A DNA stretch of 64,000 bases from Diadema setosum. Lineage: Eukaryota > Echinodermata > Echinoidea > Diadematoida > Diadematidae. Shown piece after piece: positions 16,231 through 52,996 of this stretch (positions are counted from its first letter, which is position 1; every line of letters starts with the position of its first letter). The notes beneath the pieces were generated by a model, which worked only from the letters and a program-made list of their open reading frames with translations, searched no databases and was not told the DNA's origin. Location of the stretch: the NCBI RefSeq assembly GCF_964275005.1, contig NC_092700.1:17579649-17643648 (forward strand), written 5' to 3'. The translations under genes and the position numbers were made by a program.

Positions 16231-16267
16231 ATAACTTCTCAGTTACATTATTAGATTTATTTGCTGT

Positions 16268-16815: not shown

Positions 16816-16922
16816 TTTTTTGTTGCGGGGGTTTTATCACTGTTTATGGGCAATGGGCATTTAAAACACTTTTCACCAATAAAACTTACCTGATTCGAAT
16901 CCAGTCTTTACCGCATCTAAAT

Positions 16923-18863: not shown

Positions 18864-19044
18864 CACGTGGTGAGATGGATCACGTGGTTTTTAAATAACG
18901 TTTTTATTGGCTGACAATCAGACGTTGCCATACCGACGTCACTATACAAAACGCACGCGCTTCCCGCTGGAGTATACTCGGCTTGTGCATTTCATAGCAT
19001 GATGGCGAACACACCAGTGACTTCGTTTAGTTTTGACACTGTGC
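18864..19044 (+). promoter_or_regulatory. Promoter-like segment abutting the satellite
   Basis: Within ~140 bp there are two CACGTG E-boxes (18864-18869, 18881-18886), an ATTGG inverted CCAAT box (18906-18910) and a GACGTCAC CRE-like site (18935-18942). Overlapping ATGs follow at 18999 and 19002, the second with A at -3 and G at +4. The frame from the ATG runs 21 codons and enters the first satellite monomer, where it stops. One reading is the 5' end of a gene whose body was displaced by the array. It could be chance clustering; no start site or transcript can be seen. Confidence 0.3.
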
Positions 19045-19890
19045 TAATCGATTTCATAAGATGAAAAGTTGTTTCAGGTCCGTAGAATTCATAATTTCAA
19101 GAGCAATGTCATAAGCCGTCATTTTGGTGTACAAAGCCTATGGGGTTGTAACGGGGGAGGGGTCAGAGGCAAAAAAAGCTTTCCGCTTTGAAGATAACTA
19201 AATTGATGTCAAGTTAAACCTATAGAAGTTGTAGTCTGATATCTCCTTAACACATTCTAATCGATTTCATGAGATATAAAGTTGTTTCAGGTCCGTAGAA
19301 TTCATAATTTCAAGAGCAATGTCATAAGCCGTCATTTTGGTGTACGAAGCCTATGGGGTTGTAGCCGGGGAGGGGTCAGAGGCAAAAAAAAAGCGTTCCG
19401 CTTTGAAGATAACTAAATTGATGTCACGATAAACCTATAGAAGTTGTAGTCTGATATCTCTTTCACACATTCTAATCGATTTCATAAGACGAAAAGTTGT
19501 TTCAGGTCCGTAGAATTCATAATTTCAAGGGCAATGTCATAAGCCGTCATTTTCGTGTACAAAGCCTATGGGGTTATAGCCGGTTAGGGGTCAGAGGCAA
19601 AAAAAGCGTTCCGCTTTGAAGATAACTAAATTGATGTCAAGATAAACCTATAGAAGTTGTAGTCTGATATCTCCTTCACACATTCTAATCGATTTCATGA
19701 GATATAAAGTTGTTTCAGGTCCGTAGAATTCATAATTTCAAGAGCAATGTAATAAGCCGTCATTTTGGTGTACAAAGCCTATGGGGTTGTAACGAGGGAA
19801 GGGTCAGAGGCAAAAAAAGCTTTCCACTTTGAAGACAACTAAATTGATGTCAAGTTAAACCTATAGAAGTTGTAGTCTGATATCTCCTTA

Positions 19891-22800
19891 ACATATTCTA
19901 ATCGATTTCATAAGACGAAAAGTTGTTTCAGGTCCGTAGAATTCATAATTTCAAGGGCAATGTCATAAGCCGTCATTTTCGTGTACAAAGCCTATGGGGT
20001 TATAGCCGGGGAGGGGTCAGAGGAAAAAAAAGCGTTCCGCTTTGAAGATAACTAAATTGATGTCAAGATAAACATATAGAAGTTGTAGTCTGATATCTCC
20101 TTCACACATTCTAATCGATTTCATAACATGAAAAGTTGTTTCAGGTCCGTAGAATTCATAATTTCAAGAGCAATGTCATAAGCCGCCATTTTTGTGTACA
20201 ATGCCTATGGGGTTATAGTCGGGGAGGGGACAGAGGCAAAAAAAAAAGCGTTCCGCTTTGAAGATAACTAAATTGATGTCAAGATAAACCTAAAGAAGTT
20301 GTAGTCTGATATCTCCTTCACACATTTTAATCGATATCATAAGACGAAAAGTTGCTTCATGTCCGTAGAATTGATCATTTTTCAAGGGCAATGTCATAAG
20401 CCGTCATTTTGGTGTACAAAGCCTAAGGGGTTGTAACGGGGGAGGGGTCAGAGGCAAAAAAAGCGTTCCGCTTTGAAGATAGCAAAATTGATGTCAAGAT
20501 AAACCTATAGAAATTGTAGTCTGATATCTCCTTCACACATTCTAATCGATTTCATAAGATATAAAGTTGTTTCAGGTCCGTAGAATTCATAATTTCAAGA
20601 GCAATGTCATAAGCCGTCATTTTTGTGTACAAAGCCTAAGGGGTTATAGCCGGGGAGGGGTCAGAGGCAAAAAAAAAGCGTTCCGCTTTGAAGATAACTC
20701 AATTGATGTCAAGATAAACATATAGAAGTTGTAGTCTGATATCTCCTACACACATTCTAATCGATTTCATGAGATGAAAAGTTGTTTCAGGTCCGTAGAA
20801 TTCATAATTTCAAGAGCAATGTAATAAGCCGTCATTTTGGTGTACAAAGCCTATGGGGTTGTAACGAGGGAGGGGTCAGAGGCAAAAAAAGCTCTTCGCT
20901 TTGAAGATAACTAAATTGATGTCAAGTTAAACCTATAGAAGTTGTAGTTTGATATCTCCTTCACACATTCTAATCGATTTCATAAGACGAAAAGTTGTTT
21001 CAGGTCCGTAGATCTGATAATTTCAAGGGCAATGTCATAAGCCGTCATTTTGGCGTACAAAGCCTATGGGGTTGTAACGGGGGAGGGGTCAGAGGAAAAA
21101 AAAGCTTTCCGCTTTGAAGATAACTAAATTGATGTCAAGTTAAACCTATAGAAGTTGTAGTCTGATATCTCCTTCACACATTCTAATCGATTTCATGAGA
21201 TATAAAGTTGTTTCAGGTCCGTAGAATTCATAATTTCAAGAGCAATGTCATAAGCCGTCATTTTGGTGTACAAAGCCTTAGGGTTTGTAACGGGGAAGGG
21301 GTCAGAGGCAGAAAAAGCTTTCCGCTTTGAAGATAACTAAATTGATGTCAAGTTAAACCTATAGAAGTTGTAGTCTGATATCTCCTTCACACATTCTAAT
21401 CAATTTCATAAGATGAAAAGTTGTTTCAGGTCCGTAGAATTCATAATTTCAAGAGCAATGTCATAAGCCGCCATTTTTGTGTACAATGCCTATGGGGTTA
21501 TAGTCGGGGAGGGGACAGAGGCAAAAAAAGAGCGTTCCGCTTTGAAGATAACTAAATTGATGTCAAGATAAACCTAAAGAAGTTGTAGTCTGATATCTCC
21601 TTCACACATTTTAATCGATATCATAAGACGAAAAGTTGCTTCATGTCCGTAGAACTGATCATTTTTCAAGGGCAATGTCATAAGCCGTCATTTTGGTGTA
21701 CAAAGCCTAAGGGGTTGTAACGGGGGAGGGGTCAGAGGCAAAAAAAGCGTTCCGCTTTGAAGATAACAAAATTGATGTCAAGATAAACCTCTAGAAATTG
21801 TAGTCTGATATCTCCTTCACACATTCTAATCGATTTCATAAGATATAAAGTTGTTTCAGGTCCGTAGAATTCATAATTTCAAGAGCAATGTCATAAGCCG
21901 TCATTTTTGTGTACAAAGCCTAAGGGGTTATAGCCGGGGAGGGGTCAGAGGCAAAAAAAAAGCGTTCCGCTTTGAAGATAACTAAATTGATGTCAAGATA
22001 AACCTATAGAAGTTGTAGTCTGATATCTCCTTCACACATTCTAATCGATTTCATGAGATATAAAGTTGTTTCAGGTCCGTAGAATTCATAATTTCAAGAG
22101 CAATGTAATAAGCCGTCATTTTGGTGTACAAAGCCTATGGGGTTGTAACGAGGGAAGGGTCAGAGGCAAAAAAAGCTTTCCACTTTGAAGACAACTAAAT
22201 TGATGTCAAGTTAAACCTATAGAAGTTGTAGTCTGATATCTCCTTAACATATTCTAATCGATTTCATAAGACGAAAAGTTGTTTCAGGTCCGTAGAATTC
22301 ATAATTTCAAGGGCAATGTCATAAGCCGTCATTTTCGTGTACAAAGCCTATGGGGTTATAGCCGGGGAGGGGTCAGAGGAAAAAAAAGCGTTCCGCTTTG
22401 AAGATAACTAAATTGATGTCAAGATAAACATATAGAAGTTGTAGTCTGATATCTCCTTCACACATTCTAATCGATTTCATAACATGAAAAGTTGTTTCAG
22501 GTCCGTAGAATTCATAATTTCAAGAGCAATGTCATAAGCCGCCATTTTTGTGTACAATGCCTATGGGGTTATAGTCGGGGAGGGGACAGAGGCAAAAAAA
22601 AAGCGTTCCGCTTTGAAGATAACTAAATTGATGTCAAGATAAACCTAAAGAAGTTGTAGTCTGATATCTCCTTCACACATTTTAATCGATATCATAAGAC
22701 GAAAAGTTGCTTCATGTCCGTAGAATTGATCATTTTTCAAGGGCAATGTCATAAGCCGTCATTTTGGTGTACAAAGCCTAAGGGGTTGTAACGGGGGAGG

Positions 22801-24652
22801 GGTCAGAGGCAAAAAAAGCGTTCCGCTTTGAAGATAGCAAAATTGATGTCAAGATAAACCTATAGAAATTGTAGTCTGATATCTCCTTCACACATTCTAA
22901 TCGATTTCATAAGATATAAAGTTGTTTCAGGTCCGTAGAATTCATAATTTCAAGAGCAATGTCATAAGCCGTCATTTTTGTGTACAAAGCCTAAGGGGTT
23001 ATAGCCGGGGAGGGGTCAGAGGCAAAAAAAAAGCGTTCCGCTTTGAAGATAACTCAATTGATGTCAAGATAAACATATAGAAGTTGTAGTCTGATATCTC
23101 CTACACACATTCTAATCGATTTCATGAGATGAAAAGTTGTTTCAGGTCCGTAGAATTCATAATTTCAAGAGCAATGTAATAAGCCGTCATTTTGGTGTAC
23201 AAAGCCTATGGGGTTGTAACGAGGGAGGGGTCAGAGGCAAAAAAAGCTCTTCGCTTTGAAGATAACTAAATTGATGTCAAGTTAAACCTATAGAAGTTGT
23301 AGTTTGATATCTCCTTCACACATTCTAATCGATTTCATAAGACGAAAAGTTGTTTCAGGTCCGTAGATCTGATAATTTCAAGGGCAATGTCATAAGCCGT
23401 CATTTTGGCGTACAAAGCCTATGGGGTTGTAACGGGGGAGGGGTCAGAGGAAAAAAAAGCTTTCCGCTTTGAAGATAACTAAATTGATGTCAAGTTAAAC
23501 CTATAGAAGTTGTAGTCTGATATCTCCTTCACACATTCTAATCGATTTCATGAGATATAAAGTTGTTTCAGGTCCGTAGAATTCATAATTTCAAGAGCAA
23601 TGTCATAAGCCGTCATTTTGGTGTACAAAGCCTTAGGGTTTGTAACGGGGAAGGGGTCAGAGGCAGAAAAAGCTTTCCGCTTTGAAGATAACTAAATTGA
23701 TGTCAAGTTAAACCTATAGAAGTTGTAGTCTGATATCTCCTTCACACATTCTAATCAATTTCATAAGATGAAAAGTTGTTTCAGGTCCGTAGAATTCATA
23801 ATTTCAAGAGCAATGTCATAAGCCGCCATTTTTGTGTACAATGCCTATGGGGTTATAGTCGGGGAGGGGACAGAGGCAAAAAAAGAGCGTTCCGCTTTGA
23901 AGATAACTAAATTGATGTCAAGATAAACCTAAAGAAGTTGTAGTCTGATATCTCCTTCACACATTTTAATCGATATCATAAGACGAAAAGTTGCTTCATG
24001 TCCGTAGAATTGATCATTTTTCAAGGGCAATGTCATAAGCCGTCATTTTGGTGTACAAAGCCTAAGGGGTTGTAACGGGGGAGGGGTCAGAGGCAAAAAA
24101 AGCGTTCCGCTTTGAAGATAACAAAATTGATGTCAAGATAAACCTCTAGAAATTGTAGTCTGATATCTCCTTCACACATTCTAATCGATTTCATAAGATA
24201 TAAAGTTGTTTCAGGTCCGTAGAATTCATAATTTCAAGAGCAATGTCATAAGCCGTCATTTTTGTGTACAAAGCCTAAGGGGTTATAGCCGGGGAGGGGT
24301 CAGAGGCAAAAAAAAGCGTTCCGCTTTGAAGATAATTCAATTGATGTCAAGATAAACATATAGAAGTTGTAGTCTGATATCTCCTACACACATTCTAATC
24401 GATTTCATGAGATGAAAAGTTGTTTCAGGTCCGTAGAATTCATAATTTCAAGAGCAATGTCATAAGCCGTCATTTTGGTGTACAAAGCCTATGGGGTTGT
24501 AACGAGGGAGGGGTCAGAGGCAAAAAAAGCTCTTCGCTTTGAAGATAACTAAATTGATGTCAAGTTAAACCTATAGAAGTTGTAGTCTGATATCTCCTTC
24601 ACACATTCTAATCGATTTCATAAGACGAAAAGTTGTTTCAGGTCCGTAGATC
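19891..24652. repeat. Higher-order repeat block A: 6+5 = 11-mer (~2,356 bp)
   Basis: The variant 'cttaacatattc' occurs at 19891 and 22247 (2,356 bp apart). 'gttgcttcatg' occurs at 20351, 21635, 22706 and 23990, so spacings are 1,284, 1,071 and 1,284, i.e. 6, 5 and 6 monomers. 'agatctgataatttc' occurs at about 21011, 23368 and 24653 (2,357, then 1,285). The block is therefore an 11-mer that itself contains a duplicated ~6-mer. Confidence 0.9.
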
Positions 24653-25950
24653 TGATAATTTCAAGGGCAATGTCATAAGCCGTCATTTTGGTGTACAAAG
24701 CCTATGGGGTTGTAACGGGGGAGGGGTCAGAGGAAAAAAAAGCTTTCCGCTTTGAAGATAACTAAATTGATGTCAAGTTAAACCTATAGAAGTTGTAGTC
24801 TGATATCTCCTTAACACATTCTAATCGATTTCATGAGATATAAAGTTGTTTCAGGTCCGTAGAATTCATAATTTCAAGAGAAATGTCATAAGCCGTCATT
24901 TTGGTGTACAAAGCCTATGGGGTTATAGCCGGATAGGGGTCAGAGGCCCAAAAAGCGTTCCGCTTTGAAGATAGCTAAATTGATGTCAAGATAAACATAT
25001 AGAAGTTGTAGTCTGATATCTCCTTCACACATTCTAATCGATTTCATAAGATGAAAAGTTGTTTCAGGTCCGTAGAATTCATAATTTCAAGGGCAATGTC
25101 ATAAGCCGTCATTTTGGTGTACAAAGCCTATGGGGTTGTAACGGAGGAGGGGTCAGGGGCAAAAAAAGCTTTCCGCTTTGAAGATAACTAAATTGATGTC
25201 AAGTTAAACCTATAGAAGTTGTAGTCTGATATCTCCTTAACACATTCTAATCGATTTCATGAGATATAAAGTTGTTTCAGGTCCGTAGAATTCATAATTT
25301 CAAGAGCAATGTCATAAGCCGTCATTTTGGTGTACGAAGCCTATGGGGTTGTAGCCGGGGAGGGGTCAGAGGCAAAAAAAAGCGTTCCGCTTTGAAGATA
25401 ATTAAATTGATGTCAAGATAAACCTATAGAAGTTGTAGTCTGATATCTCCTTCACACATTCTAATCGATTTCATAAGACCAAAAGTTGTTTCAGGTCCGT
25501 AGAATTGATAATTTCAAGGGCAATGTCATAAGCCGTCATTTTCGTGTACAAAGCCTATGGGGTTATAGCCGGGGAGGGGTCAGAGGCAAAAAAAAACGTT
25601 CCGCTTTGAAGATAACTAAATTGATGTCAAGATAAACATATAGAAGTTGTAGTCTGATATCTCCTTCACACATTCTAATCGATTTCATAAGATGAAAAGT
25701 TGTTTCAGGTCCGTAGAATTCATAATTTCAAGAGCAATGTCATAAGCCGTCATTTTGGTGTACAAAGCCTTCAGGTTTGTAACGGGGGAGGGGTCAGAGG
25801 CAAAAAAAGCTTTCCGCTTTGAAGATAACTAAATTGATGTCAAGTTAAACCTATAGAAGTTGTAGTCTGATATCTCCTTCACACATTCTAATCGATTTCA
25901 TAAGACCAAAAGTTGTTTCAGGTCCGTAGAATTCATAATTTCAAGAAAAA

Positions 25951-28900
25951 TGTCATGTAGGCCGTCATTTTGGTGTCCAAATCTTATGGGGTTATAACGG
26001 GGGAGGGGTCAGAGGCAAAAAAAGCGTTCCGCTTTGAAGATATCTAAATTGATGTCAAGATAAACCTATAGAAGTTGTAGTCTGATATCTCCTTCACACA
26101 TTCTAATTGATTTCATAAGAGGAAAAGTTGTTTCAGGTCCGTGAAATTGATAATTTCAAGGGCAATGTCTTAAGCCGTCGATCATTTTGGTGTCCAAAGC
26201 CTATGGGGTTATAGCCGGGGAGGGGTCAGAGGCAAAAAAAGTGTTCCGCTTTGAAGATATCTAAATTGCTGTCAAGATAAACCTATAGAAGTTGTAGTCT
26301 GATATCTCCTTCACACATTCTAATCGATTTCATAAGACGAAAAGTTGTTTCAGGTCCGTAGAATTCATAATTTCAAGGGCAATGTCATAAGCCGTCATTT
26401 TCGTGTACAAAGCCTATGGGGTTATAGCCGGGGAGGGGTCAGAGGCAAAAAAAGCGTTCCGCTTTGAAGATAACTAAATTGATGTCAAGATAAACATATA
26501 GAAGTTGTAGTCTGATATCTCCTTCACACATTCTAATCGATTTCATAAGATGAAAAGTTGTTTCAGGTCCGTAGAATTCATAATTTCAAGAGCAATGTCA
26601 TAAGCCGTCATTTTGGTGTACAAAGCCTATGGGGTTGTAACGAGGGAGGGGTCAGAGGCAAAAAAAGCTTTCCACTTTGAAGATAGCTAAATTGATGTCA
26701 AGTTAAACCTATAGAAGTTGTAGTCTGATATCTCCTTAACACATTCTAATCGATTTCATAAGACGAAAAGTTGTTTCAGGTCCGTAGAATTCATAATTTC
26801 AAGGGCAATGTCATAAGCCGTCATTTTGGTGTACAAAGCCTATGGGGTTATAGCCGGGGAGGGGTCAGAGGAAAAAAAAGCGTTCCGCTTTGAAGATAAC
26901 TAAATTGATGTCAAGATAAACATATAGAAGTTGTAGTCTGATATCTCCTTCACATATTCTAATCGATTTCATAAGAGGAAAAGTTGTTTCAGGTCCGTGA
27001 AATTGATAATTTCAAGGGCAATGTCTTAAGCCGTCATTTTGGTGTACAAAGCCTATGGGGTTATAGCCGGGGAGGGGTCAGAGGCAAAAAAAGTGTTCGG
27101 CTTCGAAGATATCTAAATTGCTGTCAAGGTAAACCTATAGAAGTTGTAGTCTGATATCTCCTTCACACATTCTAATCGATTTCATAAGACGAAAAGTTGT
27201 TTCAGATCCGTAGAATTGATAATTTCAAGGGCAATGTCATAAGCCGTCATTTTCGTGTACAAAGCCTATAGGGTTGTAACGGGGGAGGGGTCAGAGGCAA
27301 AAAAAGCTTTCCACTTTGAAGATAACTAAATTGATGTCAAGATAAACCTCTAGAAGTTGTAGTTTGATAGCTCCTTCACACATTCTAATCGATTTCATAA
27401 GACGAAAACTTGTTTCAGGTCCGTAGAATTGATAATTTCAAGGGCAATGTCATAAGCCTTCATTTTGGTGTACAAAGCCTGAGGGGTTGTAACGGGGGAG
27501 GGGTCAGAGGCAAAAAAAGCGTTCTGCTTTGAAGATAGCTAAATTGATGTCAAGATAAACCTATAGAAGTTGTAGTCTGATATCTCCTTCACACATTCTA
27601 ACTGATTTCCTAAGACGAAAAATTGTTTCAGTTCCGTAGAATTCATAATATTTCAAGGGCAATGTCATAAGCCGTCATTTTCGTGTACAAAGCCTATGGG
27701 GTTATAGCCGGGGAGGGGTCAGAGGCAAGAAAAGCTTTCCACTTTGAAGATAACTAAACTGCAGGCACCGTAACACATTCTAATCGATTTCATAAGACGA
27801 AAAGTTGTTTCAGGTCCGTAGAATTCATAATTTCAAGGGCAATGTCATAAGCCGTCATTTTCGTGTACAAAGCCTATGGGGTTATATCCGGGGAGGGGTC
27901 AGAGGCAAAAAAAGCGTTCCGCTTTGAAGATAACTAAATTGATGTCAAGATAAACATATAGAAGTTGTAGTCTGATATCTCCTTCACACATTTTAATCGA
28001 TTTCATAAGACGAAAAGTTGTTTCATGTTCGTAGAATTGATCATTTTTCAAGGGCAATGTCATAAGCCGTCATTTTGGTGTACAAAGCCTACAAAGGGGT
28101 TGTAACGGGGAAGGGGTCAGAGGCAAAAAAAGCTTTCCGCTTTGAAGATAACTAAATTGATGTCAAGTTAAACCTATAGAAGTTGTAGTCTGATATCTCC
28201 TTCACACATTCTAATCAATTTCATAAGATAAAAAGTTGTTTCAGGTCCGTAGAATTCATAATTTCAAGAGCAATGTCATAAGCCGCCATTTTTGTGTACA
28301 ATGCCTATGGGGTTATAGTCGGGGAGGGGACAGAGGCAAAAAAAAAGCGTTCCGCTTTGAAGATAACTAAATTGATGTCAAGATAAACCTAAAGAAGTTG
28401 TAGTCTGATATCTCCTTCACACATTTTAATCGATTTCATAAGACGAAAAGTTGTTTCATGTTCGTAGAATTGATCATTTTTCAAGGGCAATGTCATAAGC
28501 CGTCATTTTGGTGTACAAAGCCTAAGGGGTTGTAACGGGGGAGGGGTCAGAGGCAAAAAAAGCGTTCCGCTTTGAAGATAGCTAAATTGATGTCAAGATA
28601 AACCTCTAGAAGTTGTAGTCTGATAGCTCCTTCACACATTCTAATCGATTTCATAAGATGAAAAGTTGTTTCAGGTCCGTAGAATTCATAATTTCAAGAG
28701 CAATGTCATAAGCCGTCATTTTGGAGTACAAAGCCTATAGGGTTGTAACGGGGGAGGGGTCAGAGGCAAAAAAAGCTTTCCACTTTGAAGATAACTAAAT
28801 TGATGTCAAGATAAACCTCTAGAAGTTGTAGTCTGATAGCTCCTTCACACATTCTAATCGATTTCATAAGACGAAAACTTGTTTCAGGTCCGTAGAATTC

Positions 28901-30409
28901 ATAATTTCAAGGGCAATGTCATAAGCCTTCATTTTGGTGTACAAAGCCTATGGGGTTGTAACGGGGGAGGGGTCAGAGGCAAAAAAAGCGTTCTGCTTTG
29001 AAGATAGCTAAATTGATGTCAAGATAAACCTATAGAAGTTGTAGTCTGATATCTCCTTCACACATTCTAATTGATTTCATAAGACGAAAAGTTGTTTCAG
29101 GTCCGTAGAATTCATAATTTCAAGAGCAATGTCAGAAGCCGTCATTTTCGTGTACAAAGCCTATTGGGTTATAGCCCGTTAGGGGTCAGAGGCAAAAAAA
29201 GCGTTCCGCTATGAAGATAACTAAATTGATGTCAAGATAAACCTATAGAAGTTGTAGTCTGATATCTCCTTCACACATTCAAATCGATATCATATAATGA
29301 AAAGTTGTTTCAGGTCCGTAGAATTCATAATTTCAAGAGCAATGTAATAAGCCGTCGTTTTGGTGTACAAAGCCTATGGGGTTGTAACGAGGGATGGGTC
29401 AGAGGCAAAAAAAGCTTTCCACTTTGAAGATAACTAAATTGATGTCAAGTTAAACCTATAGAAGATGTAGTCTGATATCTCCTTAACACATTCTAATCGA
29501 TTTCATAAGTCGAAAAGTTGTTTCAGGTCCGTAGAATTCATAATTTCAAGGGCAATGTCATAAGCCGTCATTTTCGTGTACAAAGCCTATGGGGTTATAG
29601 CCGGGGAGGGGTCAGAGGCAAAAAAAGCGTTCCGCTTTGAAGATAACTAAATTGATGTCAAGATAAACATATAGAAGTTGTAGTCTGATATCTCCTTCAC
29701 ACATTCTAATCGATTTCATAAGATGAAAAGTTGTTTCAGGTCCGTAGAATTCATAATTTCAAGAGCAATGTCATAAGCCGTCATTTTGGTGTACGAAGCC
29801 TATGGGGTTGTAGCCGGGGAGGGGTCAGAGGCAAAAAAAAGCGTTCCGCTTTGAAGATAATTAAATTGATGTCAAGATAAACCTATAGAAGTTGTAGTCT
29901 GATATCTCCTTCACACATTCTAATCGATTTCATAAGACCAAAAGTTGTTTCAGGTCCGTAGAATTGATAATTTCAAGGGCAATGTCATAAGCCGTCATTT
30001 TCGTGTACAAAGCCTATGGGGTTATAGCCGGGGAGGGGTCAGAGGCAAAAAAAAACGTTCCGCTTTGAAGATAACTAAATTGATGTCAAGATAAACATAT
30101 AGAAGTTGTAGTCTGATATCTCCTTCACACATTCTAATCGATTTCATAAGATGAAAAGTTGTTTCAGGTCCGTAGAATTCATAATTTCAAGAGCAATGTC
30201 ATAAGCCGTCATTTTGGTGTACAAAGCCTTCAGGTTTGTAACGGGGGAGGGGTCAGAGGCAAAAAAAGCTTTCCGCTTTGAAGATAACTAAATTGATGTC
30301 AAGTTAAACCTATAGAAGTTGTAGTCTGATATCTCCTTCACACATTCTAATCGATTTCATAAGACCAAAAGTTGTTTCAGGTCCGTAGAATTCATAATTT
30401 CAAGAAAAA
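25951..30409. repeat. Higher-order repeat block B: ~21-mer (~4,460 bp)
   Basis: The variant 'tgtcatgtaggccgtc' recurs from 25951 to 30410 (4,459 bp). The truncated monomer recurs from 27761 to 32227 (4,466 bp), and 'gtacgaagcc' from about 25335 to 29792 (4,457 bp). It is a shorter relative of block C, lacking about four monomers. Confidence 0.9.
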
Positions 30410-39400: not shown

Positions 39401-42400
39401 TTGAAGATATCTAAATTGCTGTCAAGGTAAAAATATAGAAGTTGTAGTCTGATATCTCCTTCACACATTCTAATCGACTTCATAAGACGAAAAGTTGTTT
39501 CAGATCCGTAGAATTGATAATTTCAAGGGCAATGTCATAAGCCGTCATTTTCGTGTACAAAGCCTATGGGGTTACAGCCGTGGAGGGGTCAGAGGCAAAA
39601 AAAGCGTTCCGCTTTGAAGATAACTAAATTGATGTCAAGATAAACATATAGAAGTTGTAGTCTGATATCTCCTTCACACATTCTAATCGATTTCATAAGA
39701 TGAAAAGTTGTTTCAGGTCCGTAGAATTCATAATTTCAAGAGCAATGTCATAAGCCGTCATTTTGGAGTACAAAGCCTATAGGGTTGTAACGGGGGAGGG
39801 GTCAGAGGCAAAAAAAGCTTTCCACTTTGAAGATAACTAAATTGATGTCAAGATAAACCTCTAGAAGTTGTAGTCTGATAGCTCCTTCACACATTCTAAT
39901 CGATTTCATAAGACGAAAAGTTGTTTCAGGTAAGTAGAATTCATAATTTCAAGGGCAATGTCATAAGCCTTCATTTTGGTGTACAAAGCCTATGGGGTTG
40001 TAACGGGGGAGGGGTCAGAGGCAAAAAAAGCGTTCTGCTTTGAAGATAGCTAAATTGATGTCAAGATAAACCTATAGAAGTTGTAGTCTGATATCTCCTT
40101 CACACATTCTAATTGATTTCATAAGACGAAAAGTTGTTTCAGGTCCGTAGAATTCATAATTTCAAGAGCAATGTCAGAAGCCGTCATTTTCGTGTACAAA
40201 GCCTATTGGGTTATAGCCCGTTAGGGGTCAGAGGCAAAAAAAGCGTTCCGCTATGAAGATAACTAAATTGATGTCAAGATAAACCTATAGAAGTTGTAGT
40301 CTGATATCTCCTTCACACATTCAAATCGATATCATATAATGAAAAGTTGTTTCAGGTCCGTAGAATTCATAATTTCAAGAGCAATGTAATAAGCCGTCGT
40401 TTTGGTGTACAAAGCCTATGGGGTTGTAACGAGGGATGGGTCAGAGGCAAAAAAAGCTTTCCACTTTGAAGATAACTAAATTGATGTCAAGTTAAACCTA
40501 TAGAAGATGTAGTCTGATATCTCCTTAACACATTCTAATCGATTTCATAAGTCGAAAAGTTGTTTCAGGTCCGTAGAATTCATAATTTCAAGGGCAATGT
40601 CATAAGCCGTCATTTTCGTGTACAAAGCCTATGGGGTTATAGCCGGGGAGGGGTCAGAGGCAAAAAAAGCGTTCCGCTTTGAAGATAACTAAATTGATGT
40701 CAAGATAAACATATAGAAGTTGTAGTCTGATATCTCCTTCACACATTCTAATCGATTTCATAAGATGAAAAGTTGTTTCAGGTCCGTAGAATTCATAATT
40801 TCAAGAGCAATGTCATAAGCCGTCATTTTGGTGTACAAAGCCTTAAGGTTTGTAACGGGGGAGGGGTCAGAGGCAAAAAAAGCTTTCCGCTTTGAAGATA
40901 ACTAAATTGATGTCAAGTTAAACCTATAGAAGTTGTAGTCTGATATCTCCTTCACACATTCTAATCGATTTCATAAGACCAAAAGTTGTTTCAGGTCCGT
41001 AGAATTCATAATTTCAAGAAAAATGTCATGTAGGCCGTCATTTTGGTGTCCAAATCTTATGGGGTTATAACGGGGGAGGGGTCAGAGGCAAAAAAAGCGT
41101 TCCGCTTTGAAGATATCTATAAATTGATGTCAAGATAAACCTATAGAAGTTGTAGTCTGATATCTCCTTCACACATTCTAATTGATTTCATAAGAGGAAA
41201 AGTTGTTTCAGGTCCGTGAAATTGATAATTTCAAGGGCAATGTCTTAAGCCGTCGATCATTTTGGTGTCCAAAGCCTATGGGGTTATAGCCGGGGAGGGG
41301 TCAGAGGCAAAAAAAGTGTTCCGCTTTGAAGATATCTAAATTGCTGTCAAGATAAACCTATAGAAGTTGTAGTGTGATATCTCCTTCACACATTCTAATC
41401 GATTTCATAAGACGAAAAGTTGTTTCAGGTCCGTAGAATTCATAATTTCAAGGGCAATGTCATAAGCCGTCATTTTCGTGTACAAAGCCTATGGGGTTAT
41501 AGCCGGGGAGGGGTCAGAGGCAAAAAAAGCGTTCCGCTTTGAAGATAACTAAATTGATGTCAAGATAAACATATAGAAGTTGTAGTCTGATATCTCCTTC
41601 ACACATTCTAATCGATTTCATAAGATGAAAAGTTGTTTCAGGTCCGTAGAATTCATAATTTCAAGAGCAATGTCATAAGCCGTCATTTTGGTGTACAAAG
41701 CCTATGGGGTTGTAACGAGGGAGGGGTCAGAGGCAAAAAAAGCTTTCCACTTTGAAGATAGCTAAATTGATGTCAAGTTAAACCTATAGAAGTTGTAGTC
41801 TGATATCTCCTTAACACATTCTAATCGATTTCATAAGACGAAAAGTTGTTTCAGGTCCGTAGAATTCATAATTTCAAGGGCAATGTCATAAGCCGTCATT
41901 TTGGTGTACAAAGCCTATGGGGTTATAGCCGGGGAGGGGTCAGAGGAAAAAAAAGCGTTCCGCTTTGAAGATAACTAAATTGATGTCAAGATAAACATAT
42001 AGAAGTTGTAGTCTGATATCTCCTTCACATATTCTAATCGATTTCATAAGAGGAAAAGTTGTTTCAGGTCCGTGAAATTGATAATTTCAAGGGCAATGTC
42101 TTAAGCCGTCATTTTGGTGTACAAAGCCTATGGGGTTATAGCCGGGGAGGGGTCAGAGGCAAAAAAAGTGTTCGGCTTCGAAGATATCTAAATTGCTGTC
42201 AAGGTAAACCTATAGAAGTTGTAGTCTGATATCTCCTTCACACATTCTAATCGATTTCATAAGACGAAAAGTTGTTTCAGATCCGTAGAATTGATAATTT
42301 CAAGGGCAATGTCATAAGCCGTCATTTTCGTGTACAAAGCCTATAGGGTTGTAACGGGGGAGGGGTCAGAGGCAAAAAAAGCTTTCCACTTTGAAGATAA

Positions 42401-45400
42401 CTAAATTGATGTCAAGATAAACCTCTAGAAGTTGTAGTTTGATAGCTCCTTCACACATTCTAATCGATTTCATAAGACGAAAACTTGTTTCAGGTCCGTA
42501 GAATTGATCATTTCAAGGGCAATGTCATAAGCCTTCATTTTGGTGTACAAAGCCTGAGGGGTTGTAACGGGGGAGGGGTCAGAGGCAAAAAAAAGCGTTC
42601 TGCTTTGAAGATAGCTAAATTGATGTCAAGATAAACCTATAGAAGTTGTAGTCTGATATCTCCTTCACACATTCTAACTGATTTCCTAAGACGAAAAATT
42701 GTTTCAGTTCCGTAGAATTCATAATATTTCAAGGGCAATGTCATAAGCCGTCATTTTCGTGTACAAAGCCTATGGGGTTATAGCCGGGGAGGGGTCAGAG
42801 GCAAGAAAAGCTTTCCACTTTGAAGATAACTAAACTGCAGGCACCGTAACACATTCTAATCGATTTCATAAGACGAAAAGTTGTTTCAGGTCCGTAGAAT
42901 TCATAATTTCAAGGGCAATGTCATAAGCCGTCATTTTCGTGTACAAAGCCTATGGGGTTATATCCGGGGAGGGGTCAGAGGCAAAAAAAGCGTTCCGCTT
43001 TGAAGATAACTAAATTGATGTCAAGATAAACATATAGAAGTTGTAGTCTGATATCTCCTTCACACATTTTAATCGATTTCATAAGACGAAAAGTTGTTTC
43101 ATGTTCGTAGAATTGATCATTTTTCAAGGGCAATGTCATAAGCCGTCATTTTGGTGTACAAAGCCTAAGGGGTTGTAACGGGGAAGGGGTCAGAGGCAAA
43201 AAAGCTTTCCGCTTTGAAGATAACTAAATTGATGTCAAGTTAAACCTATAGAAGTTGTAGTCTGATATCTCCTTCACACATTCTAATCAAGTTCATAAGA
43301 TGAAAAGTTGTTTCAGGTCCGTAGAATTCATAATTTCAAGAGCAATGTCATAAGCCGCCATTTTTGTGTACAATGCCTATGGGGTTATAGTCGGGGAGGG
43401 GACAGAGGCAAAAAAAAAGCGTTCCGCTTTGAAGATAACTAAATTGATGTCAAGATAAACCTAAAGAAGTTGTAGTCTGATATCTCCTTCACACATTTTA
43501 ATCGATTTCATAAGACGAAAAGTTGTTTCATGTTCGTAGAATTGATCATTTTTCAAGGGCAATGTCTTAAGCCGTCATTTTGGTGTACAAAGCCTAAGGG
43601 GTTGTAACGGGGGAGGGGTCAGAGGCAAAAAAAGCGTTCCGCTTTGAAGATAACAAAATTGATGTCAAGATAAACCTATAGAAATTGTAGTCTGATCTCC
43701 TTCACACATTCTAATCGATTTCATAAGATATAAAGTTGTTTCAGGTCCGTAGAATTCATAATTTCAAGAGCAATGTCATAAGCCGTCATTTTGTATACAA
43801 AGCCTAAGGGGTTATAGCCGGGGAGGGGTCAGAGGCAAAAAAAGCGTTCCGATTTGAAGATAACTCAATTGATGTCAAGATAAACATATAGAAGTTGTAG
43901 TCTGATATCTCCTTCACACATTCTAATCGATTTCATGAGACGAAAAGTTGTTTCAGGTCCGTAGAATTGATAATTTCAAGGGCAATGTCATAAGCCGACA
44001 TTTTCGTGTACAAAGCCTATGGGGTTATAGCCGGGGAGGGGTCAGAGGCAAAAAAAGCGTTCCTCTTTGAAGATAACTAAATTGATGTCAAGATAAACAT
44101 ATAGAAGTTGTAGTCTGATATCTCCTTCACACATTCTAATCGATTTCATAAGATGAAAAGTTGTTTCAGGTCTGTAGAATTCATAATTTCAAGAGCAATG
44201 TCATAAGCCGTCATTTTGGTGTACAAAGCCTTAGGGTTTGTAACGGGGGAGGGGTCAGAGGCAAAAAAAGCTTTCCGCTTTGAAGATAACTAAATTGATG
44301 TCAAGTTAAACCTATAGAAGTTGTAGTCTGATATCTCCTTCACACATTCTAATCGATTTCAAAAGATGAAAAGTTGTTTCAGGTCCGTAGAATTCATAAT
44401 TTCAAGAGCAATGTCATAAGCCGCCATTTTTGTGTATAAAGCCTAAGGGGTTATAGCCGGGGAGGGGTCGGAGGCAAAAAAAAGCGTTCCGCTTTGAAGA
44501 TAACTAAATTGATGTCAAGATAAACCTATAAAAGTTGTAGTCTGATATCTCCTTCACACATTCTAATCGATTTCATAAGAGGAAAAGTTGTTTCAGGTCC
44601 GTGAAATTGATAATTTCAAGGGCAATGTCTTAAGCCGTCATTTTGGTGTACAAAGCCTATGGGGTTATAGCCGGGGAGGGGTCAGAGGCAAAAAAAGTGT
44701 TCAGCTTTGAAGATATCTAAATTGCTGTCAAGGTAAACCTATAGAAGTTGTAGTCTGATATCTCCTTCACACATTCTAATCGACTTCATAAGACGAAAAG
44801 TTGTTTCAGATCCGTAGAATTGATAATTTCAAGGGCAATGTCATAAGCCGTCATTTTCGTGTACAAAGCCTATGGGGTTACAGCCGTGGAGGGGTCAGAG
44901 GCAAAAAAAGCGTTCCGCTTTGAAGATAACTAAATTGATGTCAAGATAAACATATAGAAGTTGTAGTCTGATATCTCCTTCACACATTCTAATCGATTTC
45001 ATAAGATGAAAAGTTGTTTCAGGTCCGTAGAATTCATAATTTCAAGAGCAATGTCATAAGCCGTCATTTTGGAGTACAAAGCCTATAGGGTTGTAACGGG
45101 GGAGGGGTCAGAGGCAAAAAAAGCTTTCCACTTTGAAGAGAACTAAATTGATGTCAAGATAAACCTCTAGAAGTTGTAGTCTGATAGCTCCTTCACACAT
45201 TCTAATCGATTTCATAAGACGAAAAGTTGTTTCAGGTCCGTAGAATTCATAATTTCAAGGGCAATGTCATAAGCCTTCATTTTGGTGTACAAAGCCTATG
45301 GGGTTGTAACGGGGGAGGGGTCAGAGGCAAAAAAAGCGTTCTGCTTTGAAGATAGCTAAATTGATGTCAAGATAAACCTATAGAAGTTGTAGTCTGATAT

Positions 45401-45508
45401 CTCCTTCACACATTCTAATTGATTTCATAAGACGAAAAGTTGTTTCAGGTCCGTAGAATTCATAATTTCAAGAGCAATGTCAGAAGCCGTCATTTTCGTG
45501 TACAAAGC
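30410..45508. repeat. Higher-order repeat block C: 25-mer (~5,306 bp), about three copies
   Basis: Independent markers agree. 'tgtcatgtaggccgtc' lies at 30410, 35719 and 41024 (5,309 and 5,305). The truncated monomer lies at 32227, 37529 and 42837 (5,302 and 5,308). 'cattttgtatacaaagcc' lies at about 33178, 38486 and 43790, and 'ctattgggttatagcccg' at 34898, 40203 and 45509. Copies differ by only scattered bases, far less than monomers differ within a copy. One of the 25 monomers is the truncated one. Confidence 0.93.
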
Positions 45509-48500
45509 CTATTGGGTTATAGCCCGTTAGGGGTCAGAGGCAAAAAAAGCGTTCCGCTATGAAGATAACTAAATTGATGTCAAGATAAACCTATAGAAGT
45601 TGTAGTCTGATATCTCCTTCACACATTCAAATCGATATCATATAATGAAAAGTTGTTTCAGGTCCGTAGAATTCATAATTTCAAGAGCAATGTAACAAGC
45701 CGTCGTTTTGGTGTACAAAGCCTATGGGGTTGTAACGAGGGATGGGTCAGAGGCAAAAAAAGCTTTCCACTTTGAAGATAACTAAATTGATGTCAAGTTA
45801 AACCTATAGAAGATGTAGTCTGATATCTCCTTAACACATTCTAATCGATTTCATAAGTCGAAAAGTTGTTTCAGGTCCGTAGAATTCATAATTTCAAGGG
45901 CAATGTCATAAGCCGTCATTTTCGTGTACAAAGCCTATGGGGTTATAGCCGGGGAGTGGTCAGAGGAAAAAAAAGCGTTCCGCTTTGAAGATAACTAAAT
46001 TGATGTCAAGATAAACATATAGAAGTTGTAGTCTGATATCTCCTTCACACATTCTAATCGATTTCATAACATGAAAAGTTGTTTCAGGTCCGTAGAATCC
46101 ATAATTTCAAGAGCAATGTCATAAGCCGTCATTTTGGTGTACAAAGCCTATGGGGTTGTAACGGGGAAGGGGTCAGAGGCAAAAAAGCTTTCCGCTTTGA
46201 AGATAACTAAATTGATGTCAAGTTAAACCTATAGAAGTTGTAGTCTGATATCTCCTTCACACATTCTAATCAATTTCATAAGATGAAAAGTTGTTTCAGG
46301 TCCGTAGAATTCATAATTTCAAGAGCAATGTCATAAGCCGCCATTTTTGTGTACAATGCCTATGGGGTTATAGCCGGGGAGGGGTCGGAGGCAAAAAAAA
46401 GCGTTCCGCTTTGAAGATAACTCAATTGATGTCAAGATAAACATATAGAAGTTGTAGTCTGATATCTCCTACACACATTCTAATCGATTTCATGAGATGA
46501 AAAGTTGTTTCAGGTCCGTAGAATTCATAATTTCAAGAGCAATGTCATAAGCCGCCATTTTTGTGTACAATGCCTATGGGGTTATAGTCGGGGAGGGGAC
46601 AGAGGCAAAAAAAAAAGCGCTCCGCTTTGAAGATAACTAAATTGATGTCAAGATAAACCTAAAGAAGTTGTAGTCTGATATCTCCTTCACACATTTTAAT
46701 CGATTTCATAAGACGAAAAGTTGTTTCATGTTCGTAGAATTGATCATTTTTCAAGGGCAATGTCATAAGCCGTCATTTTGGTGTACAAAGCCTAAGGGGT
46801 TGTAACGGGGGAGGGGTCAGAGGCAAAAAAAGCGTTCCGCTTTGAAGATAACAAAATTGATGTCAAGATAAACCTACAGAAATTGTAGTCTGATCTCCTT
46901 CACACATTCTAATCGATTTCATAAGATATAAAGTTGTTTCAGGTCCGTAGAATTCATAATTTCAAGAGCAATGTCATAAGCCGTCATTTTGTATACAAAG
47001 CCTAAGGGGTTATAGCCGGGGAGGGGTCAGAGGCAAAAAAAGCGTTCCGATTTGAAGATAACTCAATTGATGTCAAGATAAACATATAGAAGTTGTAGTC
47101 TGATATCTCCTTCACACATTCTAATCGATTTCATGAGACGAAAAGTTGTTTCAGGTCCGTAGAATTCATAATTTCAAGGGCAATGTCATAAGCCGACATT
47201 TTCGTGTACAAAGCCTATGGGGTTATAGCCGGGGAGGGGTCAGAGGCAAAAAAAGCGTTCCGCTTTGAAGATAACTAAATTGATGTCAAGATAAACATAT
47301 AGAAGTTGTAGTCTGATATCTCCTTCACACATTCTAATCGATTTCATAAGATGAAAAGTTGTTTCAGGTCTGTAGAATTCATAATTTCAAGAGCAATGTC
47401 ATAAGCCGTCATTTTGGTGTACAAAGCCTTAGGGTTTGTAACGGGGGAGGGGTCAGAGGCAAAAAAGCTTTCCGCTTTGAAGATAACTAAATTGATGTCA
47501 AGTTAAACCTATAGAAGTTGTAGTCTGATATCTCCTTCACACATTCTAATCGATTTCAAAAGATGAAAAGTTGTTTCAGGTCCGTAGAATTCATAATTTC
47601 AAGAGCAATGTCATAAGCCGCCATTTTTGTGTATAAAGCCTAAGGGGTTATAGCCGGGGAGGGGTCGGAGGCAAAAAAAAGCGTTCCGCTTTGAAGATAA
47701 CTAAATTGATGTCAAGATAAACCTATAAAAGTTGTAGTCTGATATCTCCTTCACACATTCTAATCGATTTCATAAGAGGAAAAGTTGTTTCAGGTCCGTG
47801 AAATTGATAATTTCAAGGGCAATGTCTTAAGCCGTCATTTTGGTGTACAAAGCCTATGGGGTTATAGCCGGGGAGGGGTCAGAGGCAAAAAAAGTGTTCA
47901 GCTTTGAAGATATCTAAATTGCTGTCAAGGTAAACCTATAGAAGTTGTAGTCTGATATCTCCTTCACACATTCTAATCGACTTCATAAGACGAAAAGTTG
48001 TTTCAGATCCGTAGAATTGATAATTTCAAGGGCAATGTCATAAGCCGTCATTTTCGTGTACAAAGCCTATGGGGTTACAGCCGTGGAGGGGTCAGAGGCA
48101 AAAAAAGCGTTCCGCTTTGAAGATAACTAAATTGATGTCAAGATAAACATATAGAAGTTGTAGTCTGATATCTCCTTCACACATTCTAATCGATTTCATA
48201 AGATGAAAAGTTGTTTCAGGTCCGTAGAATTCATAATTTCAAGAGCAATGTCATAAGCCGTCATTTTGGAGTACAAAGCCTATAGGGTTGTAACGGGGGA
48301 GGGGTCAGAGGCAAAAAAAGCTTTCCACTTTGAAGATAACTAAATTGATGTCAAGATAAACCTCTAGAAGTTGTAGTCTGATAGCTCCTTCACACATTCT
48401 AATCGATTTCATAAGACGAAAACTTGTTTCAGGTCCGTAGAATTCATAATTTCAAGGGCAATGTCATAAGCCTTCATTTTGGTGTACAAAGCCTATGGGG

Positions 48501-51500
48501 TTGTAACGGGGGAGGGGTCAGAGGCAAAAAAAGCGTTCTGCTTTGAAGATAGCTAAATTGATGTCAAGATAAACCTATAGAAGTTGTAGTCTGATATCTC
48601 CTTCACACATTCTAATTGATTTCATAAGACGAAAAGTTGTTTCAGGTCCGTAGAATTCATAATTTCAAGAGCAATGTCAGAAGCCGTCATTTTCGTGTAC
48701 AAAGCCTATTGGGTTATAGCCCGTTAGGGGTCAGAGGCAAAAAAAGCGTTCCGCTATGAAGATAACTAAATTGATGTCAAGATAAACCTATAGAAGTTGT
48801 AGTCTGATATCTCCTTCACACATTCAAATCGATATCATATAATGAAAAGTTGTTTCAGGTCCGTAGAATTCATAATTTCAAGAGCAATGTAATAAGCCGT
48901 CGTTTTGGTGTACAAAGCCTATGGGGTTGTAACGAGGGATGGGTCAGAGGCAAAAAAAGCTTTCCACTTTGAAGATAACTAAATTGATGTCAAGTTAAAC
49001 CTATAGAAGATGTAGTCTGATATCTCCTTAACACATTCTAATCGATTTCATAAGTCGAAAAGTTGTTTCAGGTCCGTAGAATTCATAATTTCAAGGGCAA
49101 TGTCATAAGCCGTCATTTTCGTGTACAAAGCCTATGGGGTTATAGCCGGGGAGTGGTCAGAGGAAAAAAAAGCGTTCCGCTTTGAAGATAACTAAATTGA
49201 TGTCAAGATAAACATATAGAAGTTGTAGTCTGATATCTCCTTCACACATTCTAATCGATTTCATAACATGAAAAGTTGTTTCAGGTCCGTAGAATCCATA
49301 ATTTCAAGAGCAATGTCATAAGCCGTCATTTTGGTGTACAAAGCCTATGGGGTTGTAACGGGGAAGGGGTCAGAGGCAAAAAAGCTTTCCGCTTTGAAGA
49401 TAACTAAATTGATGTCAAGTTAAACCTATAGAAGTTGTAGTCTGATATCTCCTTCACACATTCTAATCAATTTCATAAGATGAAAAGTTGTTTCAGGTCC
49501 GTAGAATTCATAATTTCAAGAGCAATGTCATAAGCCGCCATTTTTGTGTACAATGCCTATGGGGTTATAGCCGGGGAGGGGTCGGAGGCAAAAAAAAGCG
49601 TTCCGCTTTGAAGATAACTCAATTGATGTCAAGATAAACATATAGAAGTTGTAGTCTGATATCTCCTACACACATTCTAATCGATTTCATGAGATGAAAA
49701 GTTGTTTCAGGTCCGTAGAATTCATAATTTCAAGAGCAATGTCATAAGCCGCCATTTTTGTGTACAATGCCTATGGGGTTATAGTCGGGGAGGGGACAGA
49801 GGCAAAAAAAAAAGCGTTCCACTTTGAAGATAACTAAATTGATGTCAAGATAAACCTAAAGAAGTTGTAGTCTGATATCTCCTTCACACATTTTAATCGA
49901 TTTCATAAGACGAAAAGTTGTTTCATGTTCGTAGAATTGATCATTTTTCAAGGGCAATGTCATAAGCCGTCATTTTGGTGTACAAAGCCTAAGGGGTTGT
50001 AACGGGGGAGGGGTCAGAGGCAAAAAAAGCGTTCCGCTTTGAAGATAACAAAATTGATGTCAAGATAAACCTACAGAAATTGTAGTCTGATCTCCTTCAC
50101 ACATTCTAATCGATTTCATAAGATATAAAGTTGTTTCAGGTCCGTAGAATTCATAATTTCAAGAGCAATGTCATAAGCCGTCATTTTGTATACAAAGCCT
50201 AAGGGGTTATAGCCGGGGAGGGGTCAGAGGCAAAAAAAGCGTTCCGATTTGAAGATAACTCAATTGATGTCAAGATAAACATATAGAAGTTGTAGTCTGA
50301 TATCTCCTTCACACATTCTAATCGATTTCATGAGACGAAAAGTTGTTTCAGGTCCGTAGAATTCATAATTTCAAGGGCAATGTCATAAGCCGACATTTTC
50401 GTGTACAAAGCCTATGGGGTTATAGCCGGGGAGGGGTCAGAGGCAAAAAAAGCGTTCCGCTTTGAAGATAACTAAATTGATGTCAAGATAAACATATAGA
50501 AGTTGTAGTCTGATATCTCCTTCACACATTCTAATCGATTTCATAAGATGAAAAGTTGTTTCAGGTCTGTAGAATTCATAATTTCAAGAGCAATGTCATA
50601 AGCCGTCATTTTGGTGTACAAAGCCTTAGGGTTTGTAACGGGGGAGGGGTCAGAGGCAAAAAAAGCTTTCCGCTTTGAAGATAACTAAATTGATGTCAAG
50701 TTAAACCTATAGAAGTTGTAGTCTGATATCTCCTTCACACATTCTAATCGATTTCAAAAGATGAAAAGTTGTTTCAGGTCCGTAGAATTCATAATTTCAA
50801 GAGCAATGTCATAAGCCGCCATTTTTGTGTATAAAGCCTAAGGGGTTATAGCCGGGGAGGGGTCGGAGGCAAAAAAAAGCGTTCCGCTTTGAAGATAACT
50901 AAATTGATGTCAAGATAAACCTATAAAAGTTGTAGTCTGATATCTCCTTCACACATTCTAATCGATTTCATAAGAGGAAAAGTTGTTTCAGGTCCGTGAA
51001 ATTGATAATTTCAAGGGCAATGTCTTAAGCCGTCATTTTGGTGTACAAAGCCTATGGGGTTATAGCCGGGGAGGGGTCAGAGGCAAAAAAAGTGTTCAGC
51101 TTTGAAGATATCTAAATTGCTGTCAAGGTAAACCTATAGAAGTTGTAGTCTGATATCTCCTCCACACATTCTAATCGACTTCATAAGACGAAAAGTTGTT
51201 TCAGATCCGTAGAATTGATAATTTCAAGGGCAATGTCATAAGCCGTCATTTTCGTGTACAAAGCCTATGGGGTTACAGCCGTGGAGGGGTCAGAGGCAAA
51301 AAAAGCGTTCCGCTTTGAAGATAACTAAATTGATGTCAAGATAAACATATAGAAGTTGTAGTCTGATATCTCCTTCACACATTCTAATCGATTTCATAAG
51401 ATGAAAAGTTGTTTCAGGTCCGTAGAATTCATAATTTCAAGAGCAATGTCATAAGCCGTCATTTTGGAGTACAAAGCCTATAGGGTTGTAACGGGGGAGG

Positions 51501-52996
51501 GGTCAGAGGCAAAAAAAGCTTTCCACTTTGAAGATAACTAAATTGATGTCAAGATAAACCTCTAGAAGTTGTAGTCTGATAGCTCCTTCACACATTCTAA
51601 TCGATTTCATAAGACGAAAACTTGTTTCAGGTCCGTAGAATTCATAATTTCAAGGGCAATGTCATAAGCCTTCATTTTGGTGTACAAAGCCTATGGGGTT
51701 GTAACGGGGGAGGGGTCAGAGGCAAAAAAAGCGTTCTGCTTTGAAGATAGCTAAATTGATGTCAAGATAAACCTATAGAAGTTGTAGTCTGATATCTCCT
51801 TCACACATTCTAATTGATTTCATAAGACGAAAAGTTGTTTCAGGTCCGTAGAATTCATAATTTCAAGAGCAATGTCAGAAGCCGTCATTTTCGTGTACAA
51901 AGCTTATTGGGTTATAGCCCGTTAGGGGTCAGAGGCAAAAAAAGCGTTCCGCTATGAAGATAACTAAATTGATGTCAAGATAAACCTATAGAAGTTGTAG
52001 TCTGATATCTCCTTCACACATTCAAATCGATATCATATAATGAAAAGTTGTTTCAGGTCCGTAGAATTCATAATTTCAAGAGCAATGTAATAAGCCGTCG
52101 TTTTGGTGTACAAAGCCTATGGGGTTGTAACGAGGGAGGGGTCAGAGGCAAAAAAAGCTTTCCACTTTGAAGATAACTAAATTGATGTCAAGTTAAACCT
52201 ATAGAAGATGTAGTCTGATATCTCCTTAACACATTCTAATCGATTTCATAAGTCGAAAAGTTGTTTCAGGTCCGTAGAATTCATAATTTCAAGGGCAATG
52301 TCATAAGCCGTCATTTTCGTGTACAAAGCCTATGGGGTTATAGCCGGGGAGTGGTCAGAGGAAAAAAAAGCGTTCCGCTTTGAAGATAACTAAATTGATG
52401 TCAAGATAAACATATAGAAGTTGTAGTCTGATATCTCCTTCACACATTCTAATCGATTTCATAACATGAAAAGTTGTTTCAGGTCCGTAGAATCCATAAT
52501 TTCAAGAGCAATGTCATAAGCCGTCATTTTGGTGTACAAAGCCTATGGGGTTGTAACGGGGAAGGGGTCAGAGGCAAAAAAAGCTTTCCGCTTTGAAGAT
52601 AGCTAAATTGATGTCAAGTTAAACCTCTAGAAGTTGTAGTCTGATATCTCCTTCACACATTCTAATCAATTTCATAAGATGAAAAGTTGTTTCAGGTCCG
52701 TAGAATTCATAATTTCAAGAGCAATGTCATAAGCCGCCATTTTTGTGTACAATGCCTATGGGGTTATAGCCGGGGAGGGGTCGGAGGCAAAAAAAAAGCG
52801 TTCCGCTTTGAAGATAACTCAATTGATGTCAAGATAAACATATAGAAGTTGTAGTCTGATATCTCCTACACACATTCTAATCGATTTCATGAGATGAAAA
52901 GTTGTTTCAGGTCCGTAGAATTCATAATTTCAAGAGCAATGTCATAAGCCGCCATTTTTGTGTACAATGCCTATGGGGTTATAGTCGGGGAGGGGT
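45509..52996. repeat. Higher-order repeat block D: 15-mer (~3,198 bp), about 2.3 copies
   Basis: 'ctattgggttatagcccg' lies at 45509, 48706 and, with one change, 51903 (3,197 each). 'ggggagtggtcagagg' lies at 45951, 49148 and 52346. 'cattttgtatacaaagcc' lies at about 46989 and 50190. The monomer set overlaps block C but lacks about ten of its monomers, including the truncated one. The last monomer is cut at 52996 by the foldback element. Confidence 0.93.

Follow-up and report, generated by a model that had tools for sequence, protein, structure and literature searches.

How does a satellite with higher-order repeats (HORs) arise, and how does it come to stand at one place on a sea urchin chromosome? 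The question is raised by a stretch of 64,000 bp from Diadema setosum (NCBI RefSeq assembly GCF_964275005.1, contig NC_092700.1, positions 17,579,649 to 17,643,648), hereafter the window, which contains a tandem array of about 34 kb followed directly by a transposon that we call TE-B. The contig, C16 in our numbering, is 37,886,898 bp long. The answer that we consider likely is that the array is a young single-locus echinoderm satellite, related to a transposon and amplified locally, which probably moved as a circle and is not a centromere. The analysis concerns the assembled sequence, and the array is accepted as it was assembled.

Tandem Repeats Finder (TRF) reports one array at 19044-52996 with a period of 213 and 159.6 copies, while decompositions by anchor and by nhmmer give 160 monomers at 19044-52995 with a mean length of about 213 bp, all on the forward strand, the last one partial; 213 bp is found in 101 of the 159 anchor-to-anchor spacings. 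These values bear out the original prediction, made from the letters of the DNA, of about 159 monomers of about 214 bp over 34 kb. The span that it gave, 19045-52996, holds as to the array, with its edges amended to 19044 and 52995, the latter because base 52996 is the first base of TE-B. All-versus-all edit distances between monomers, clustered at a distance of 6, sort them into 31 types. A search of the window for structured RNA gave no Rfam match at gathering scores.

That the array has a multi-level HOR structure is confirmed. All four periods proposed beforehand (2,356, ~4,460, ~5,306 and ~3,198 bp) are reproduced, as 11-, 21-, 25- and 15-mers of monomers. The 11-mer occurs in two copies (2,356 and 2,354 bp), the 21-mer in one (4,459 bp), the 25-mer in three (5,309, 5,305 and 5,306 bp), and the 15-mer in two (3,197 and 3,198 bp) and the start of another. 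From left to right, an irregular start of monomers 1-3 is followed by the 11-mers, an irregular stretch, the 21-mer, the 25-mers, the 15-mers and the beginning of the third 15-mer (Table 1). HOR copies had also been said to be nearly identical while the monomers inside them diverge, and the edit distances agree: summed over monomers, 7 edits separate the two 11-mers, 30, 26 and 30 the first and second, second and third, and first and third 25-mers, and 6 the two 15-mers, that is, 6-30 edits per copy of 2.4-5.3 kb, against about 17 for a pair of monomers inside one copy (averages 15.8-17.7, or ~8% divergence). The longest diagonal of near-identical monomers (at most 4 edits) comprises 47 of them; when the monomer order was shuffled 500 times, no run exceeded 4. 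As to the levels themselves, the 21-mer and the first 25-mer have their first 13 monomers in common, with 12 edits in total, and the 15-mer consists of the last 13 monomers of the 25-mer plus two that replace its first 12; the 13 that it holds in common with the neighbouring 25-mer differ by 13 edits in all. Since monomers of type C occur five times per 25-mer, these HORs are 'cascading' in the sense used in the accessible text of PMC11157248. A MAFFT alignment of the first two 25-mers at 99.08% identity with 864 gap bases was set aside as a misalignment, the monomer-wise count being only 30 edits. Hybrid monomers were considered as traces of unequal exchange, and several types do fit two parents better than one; as some 900 pairs of parents were tried for each type with no control to set beside them, this was not counted as evidence.

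Table 1. Features of the satellite locus (positions in the window unless a contig is named) and copies of element X.
Feature	Position	Strand	Length	Remarks
Left flank of array	17100..19043	.		single copy in the assembly; matched in full only by itself, otherwise seven hits no longer than 86 bp
Satellite array, 160 monomers of ~213 bp, subfamily SF4	19044..52995	+		TRF, anchor and nhmmer; TE-B starts at the next base
11-mer HOR, copy 1	19685..22040	+		monomer-type string DCEFGHIJEFG
11-mer HOR, copy 2	22041..24394	+		monomer-type string
21-mer HOR	25675..30133	+		monomer-type string
25-mer HOR, copy 1	30134..35442	+		type string, edit distances
25-mer HOR, copy 2	35443..40747	+		type string, edit distances
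25-mer HOR, copy 3	40748..46053	+		type string, edit distances
15-mer HOR, copy 1	46054..49250	+		type string, edit distances
15-mer HOR, copy 2	49251..52448	+		type string, edit distances
Start of third 15-mer	52449..52995	+		cut within an E-type monomer; final AGGGG is half of a target-site duplication
Transposon TE-B, right copy	52996..58135	+	5,140 bp	ends TGTGGAGCCGGGAAATG and complement
GATCT	58136..58140	.		left TE-B copy has the same five bases on its outer side
Transposon TE-B, left copy	C16:17,574,195-17,579,389			outside the window, same orientation as right copy
Segment between TE-B copies, part in window	1..52995	.		segment of 53,254 bp, starting ~260 bp left of the window
Element X	C16		6,948 bp	duplication GGTTGT (6 bp)
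Element X	C19		8,378 bp	duplication GTAATA (6 bp)
Element X	C13		10,205 bp	no matching duplication
Element X	C24		~28 kb	no matching duplication

How did the array reach this position? The segment between the two TE-B copies (C16:17,579,390-17,632,643) begins, directly after the left copy, with another 175 bp of the satellite. The left copy is flanked by GATCT on its outer side and by AGGGG plus satellite on its inner side, and the right copy by satellite plus AGGGG and then GATCT. Among the control copies of TE-B, all five that could be read carry matching 5-bp duplications of their own (GGTCT, GGGGC, ACCCT, AACCT and ATACC); a sixth was unreadable, its right end not being found. One TE-B insertion in the array, with the duplication AGGGG, and one in other DNA, with GATCT, thus appear to have exchanged partners, and the 53,254-bp segment between them has its satellite in permuted order. 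If the two satellite halves are joined with a single AGGGG, a 45-bp site is formed that exists intact in three E monomers (at 20205, 46574 and 49771), and among overlaps of 0-11 bases only 5 bases re-form it. Two places with d-E monomers are identical to the final 125 bases of the array, and the upstream fragment matches two E-Y places at 98.3% without gaps and, with one gap, three more E places.

The two TE-B copies differ by 12 substitutions in 5,111 bases (0.23%) and by 30 gap events, many of them in single-base runs; compared with this pair, a copy on C5 differs by 0.53-0.60% and another, on C14, by 3.2-3.3%. As the pair is so little diverged, the event is recent; the substitution count cannot choose between versions of the event, since the independent copy on C5 is itself only 0.53-0.60% away. 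Several simple accounts of the pair fail. Independent insertion of both copies is contradicted by the duplications, which match crosswise and not within either copy; an inversion would need inverted copies, and these have the same orientation; and unequal crossover between them would, by argument and not by computation, leave one hybrid copy only. The right copy contains no open reading frame (ORF) of 150 aa or more. TE-B belongs to a high-copy family with internal repeats and very similar young copies (948 candidates at first look, 40 of them scored).

Where else does the satellite occur? A 36-mer of the monomer was counted, with at most 3 mismatches, over the whole assembly (912.7 Mb, 102 contigs), in which a control pattern gave no match. 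There are 154 matches, all forward, 142 in the array of the window and 12 on C26, an unplaced contig of 761,563 bp, which accounts for all the matches; the subfamily of the window, SF4, was thus found at two loci. Sister repeats were found by a DNA search on at least C4, C8, C9, C11, C12, C13, C16 (at 7.8 Mb), C19, C24 and C26; as the search scored 39 of 48 candidates and skips very common words, so that the window's own array is unlisted, such counts are lower bounds. When 207 monomers no shorter than 180 bp (30 from the window, one per type) are compared in a tree and by pairwise identity, four subfamilies separate: SF1 comprises monomers of C12, C11, C9 and the copies of an element that we call X, SF2 those of C4, C8 and one site on C24, SF3 those of one site on C13 and a part of C26, and SF4 those of the window and the rest of C26. 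Identity between SF4 and the other three is 69-74%, and its monomers in the window and on C26 have a mean identity of 89.7%. On C26 a run of SF3 (9 near-full monomers) is replaced, over about 40 bases, by one of SF4 (13 near-full monomers) that has the same orientation.

Some of these sites have an arrangement of their own. On C9 (24,083,000-24,102,999) a composite unit of about 2,066 bp is made of sister monomers and a spacer of about 978 bp, of which three copies are 99.6-99.8% identical and a fourth about 93.5%, and the left edge of this array abuts a TE-B end. On C24 (16,976,500-16,981,000) SF2 monomer hits lie on opposite strands, head to head and without a spacer, at ~396-399 of that stretch. 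On C13 (14,149,000-14,157,500) runs of SF3 monomers form an inverted pair, and an open frame 357 bp beyond it has a transposase domain of the ISXO2/IS1595 type (PF12762, E 4.6e-9), which is a matter of adjacency only.

What, then, is the origin of the monomer? The family to which SF4 belongs is homologous to repeats in transposon ends. Element X is present in four copies with both ends, TACGGAGCCCCTAAGGGGACA and its complement (Table 1), and a genome-wide search for its termini gave 16 matches at no more than 3 mismatches (9 forward, 7 reverse). In each of the four copies, SF1 monomers form an inverted pair and lie in tandem within both terminal inverted repeats, in runs of 2.4-3.1 copies where TRF calls them; the right arm of the C16 copy shows two weak partial monomer hits only. 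Besides the monomers, the inverted repeats contain a TA run and a tandem array with a 21-bp unit. On C11, 19 monomer hits in a row continue directly into internal DNA of X at 95-97% identity, as if the run had expanded in place. The C12 array has 36 hits, of which 35 are near-full monomers with a mean identity of 99.5%; it repeats mainly at a distance of one monomer, without a clear HOR, runs into a stretch of N, and its monomers are 89-95% identical to those in X. No transposase was recognised in ORFs of at least 100 aa of three X copies, and two ORFs, near X and elsewhere, had no Pfam match above the cut-off. In the ~28-kb copy on C24, of which parts covering all but 5.5 kb were inspected, ORFs resemble reverse transcriptases of long interspersed nuclear elements (LINEs) by eye.

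From these observations a course of events can be proposed. The monomer would come from a repeat family of about 210 bp, a sister subfamily of which sits as a few tandem copies in the long terminal inverted repeats of X, and SF4 may well descend from such a transposon end. One monomer lineage would have been amplified in tandem, and unequal exchange, or another kind of tandem duplication, would have produced the four HORs in succession, each duplicated a few times and recently; unequal exchange is the source that we suppose. The finished or nearly finished array would then have been carried on the 53-kb segment together with one copy of TE-B, most likely as a circle of about 58 kb that recombined with a TE-B resident at the site and so became integrated. 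Such a recombination explains the exchanged duplications and the permuted order in one step. The array is most likely driven by recombination and neutral or selfish, probably with no cellular function.

Each part of this proposal has to be weighed against others. For the origin, several points speak against us: we found no transposon with SF4 itself in its inverted repeats, the flanks of the window array match no sequence of X, matching duplications are missing in two of the four X copies, and a transposon could instead have captured a satellite. It is conceivable that the satellite came first and that X later gained monomers in its inverted repeats, and the family does also form arrays without recognisable X ends in the stretches examined. 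The monomers, however, occupy matching places in the two inverted repeats of X copies, those of the C12 array are close to them in sequence, and the longer run on C11 stands beside X DNA, so that we regard the reverse order as rather unlikely. Could the array instead be the centromeric satellite of this chromosome, recruiting CENP-A while other chromosomes use other arrays of the family? The original prediction had put it forward as a centromeric candidate and had proposed counting the monomer across all chromosomes. The array does lie near the middle of the contig (at 46% of 37.9 Mb), HORs are typical of some centromeres, arrays of sister subfamilies occur on other chromosomes, and that on C12, where it meets the stretch of N, may be longer than seen. 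The count, however, which concerns SF4 only, puts 142 of 154 matches here and 12 of 154 on C26; the array measures only 34 kb; and C13, C16, C19 and C24 each carry sister repeats at two or more positions, partly inside transposon ends. A strict CENP-B box, a motif not required in all centromeres, has no match on either strand of the array, and among the 76 contigs C27-C102, 12 that were sampled over their first 2.5 kb, a thin sample, gave no match to the monomer profile. One of these 12, C102 (15,708 bp), is mitochondrial, with a large-subunit rRNA match directly before COX1, which reads with table 9 (AAA=N, AGR=S, TGA=W); this code and gene order mark the host as an echinoderm, the order being one that suits echinoids or holothuroids. 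The centromeric candidacy is not supported by the comparison, and we consider a centromeric role very improbable.

As to the movement, we hold tentatively, at somewhat less than an even chance, a reading in which germ-line recombination joined a circle of about 58 kb, with the whole HOR satellite and a single TE-B on it, to a TE-B already at the site, the exchanged 5-bp duplications being its trace. It is weakened by the upstream fragment, whose best identity of 98.3% is below that between HOR copies and which several E-containing places fit almost equally, and by the donor locus of the 53-kb segment, which was not found. The sequence 17100-19043 is single copy: besides itself it has in the assembly only seven matches of up to 86 bp at 75-84%. 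Nor is there a repeat common to window positions 1-19043 and the outer flanks, at which a circle might have closed. The same exchanged duplications are expected if the whole moved as a composite transposon, the direct TE-B copies stemming from an earlier tandem duplication and the outer ends acting to make the new duplication GATCT; a replicative cointegrate of a circle bearing TE-B would leave that structure too. With composite transposition it also fits that the pair is closer to each other than to the C5 copy, the next one compared, but the array's right half could come to stand ahead of its left half only through a prior tandem duplication, and 17100-19043 has no second copy. Also counted against it is that no 60-kb move by TE-B is known to us, although such a case was not searched for. 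We judge composite transposition to be possible but not probable. Finally, a separate or circular satellite-bearing molecule may have been joined here by misassembly through the 5.1-kb repeat. Both junctions fall exactly at near-identical copies of it, the assembly contains stretches of N, and the pair differs mostly by indels, many in single-base runs. Reads longer than 5 kb would resolve TE-B, however, and since the array's right half comes ahead of its left half, even misassembly would require the segment to have been circular or in tandem. We regard an artefact as improbable.

Several known systems can be compared with this locus. X resembles Tetris of Drosophila virilis, with its repeat TIR-220, in having no coding capacity and long, internally repetitive inverted repeats, with a few tandem copies of about 220 bp inside them and long homogeneous arrays elsewhere (PMC4079207, accessible text). 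The likeness is one of arrangement, without sequence comparison: a tandem repeat in both inverted repeats is seen for SF1 in X and was not found for SF4, whose exact parent element was not found here, while the long homogeneous arrays are represented by that on C12 (35 near-full monomers at 99.5%) and by the 160 monomers of the window. The 6-bp duplications of two of the four X copies also differ from the 8-10 bp given for Tetris, and TIR-220 arrays reach 66 copies, with no HOR described in that part of the source (PMC4079207), against 160 monomers and four HORs here. The original prediction had seen in the HORs the hallmark of alpha satellite. Near-identical HOR copies with divergent monomers are indeed common to both, and in 'cascading' HORs of alpha satellite monomer types recur inside one copy as here (PMC11157248, accessible text), but to speak of a hallmark overstates the likeness: monomers inside a copy diverge by about 8% here and by 20-40% there (PMC11157248, same text), and where an array like alpha satellite would be expected to have many tandem copies per HOR, the window array has one to three, at two loci and with no strict CENP-B box. 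Among other invertebrates, dimeric HORs are reported in low-copy satellites of Tribolium (PMC10218199, accessible text); for an echinoderm satellite, no description of HORs was found among the titles and abstract openings listed for the open PMC literature.

Two copies of a transposon carrying each other's duplications, as TE-B does here, are known from the inversion breakpoints made by Galileo, where they are read as ectopic recombination (PMC2775673, accessible text). There, inverted copies led to an inversion, whereas the direct TE-B copies enclose a permuted segment (PMC2775673). Permuted order is taken as the sign of a circle also in human segmental duplications attributed to circular intermediates (PMC7450558, accessible text); the junctions there show microhomology only, in contrast to the transposon homology here, where the segment carries a satellite (PMC7450558). 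The titles and abstract openings listed for the open PMC literature yielded no satellite bounded by exchanged transposon duplications.

The origin of satellites and their movement between loci are usually inferred from statistics. This one genome shows what look like successive stages, from monomers in transposon ends through the run on C11 and the C12 array, homogenised but without clear HORs, to the window array, which adds successive HORs and the footprint of its movement. If the circle proposal is true, the locus records, down to single bases, the integration half of the model in which satellites spread as circles, and transposons would be both the source of satellite monomers and the landing pads by which finished arrays move between loci. 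If the 0.23% difference within the TE-B pair is a fair guide to the age of the event, presence and absence of the segment should still vary between animals.

The same 53-kb segment carries other repeats besides the satellite. Adjoining tandem arrays with units of 323 and 325 bp occupy 3144-8006 of the window; the second of them, 4252-8006, has 11.6 copies with 99% matches and is overlapped by a 226-aa open frame (7722-8402, minus strand) with no Pfam match up to E 0.1. Arrays with a unit of 23 bp, similar to CTCATGGCATATACTCAACCAGT, lie at 1-420, 1374-1636, 16268-16816 and 16923-17058. One of them starts where the upstream satellite fragment ends, and the last two are inverted relative to each other and face inwards or outwards as a pair would in a small foldback element.

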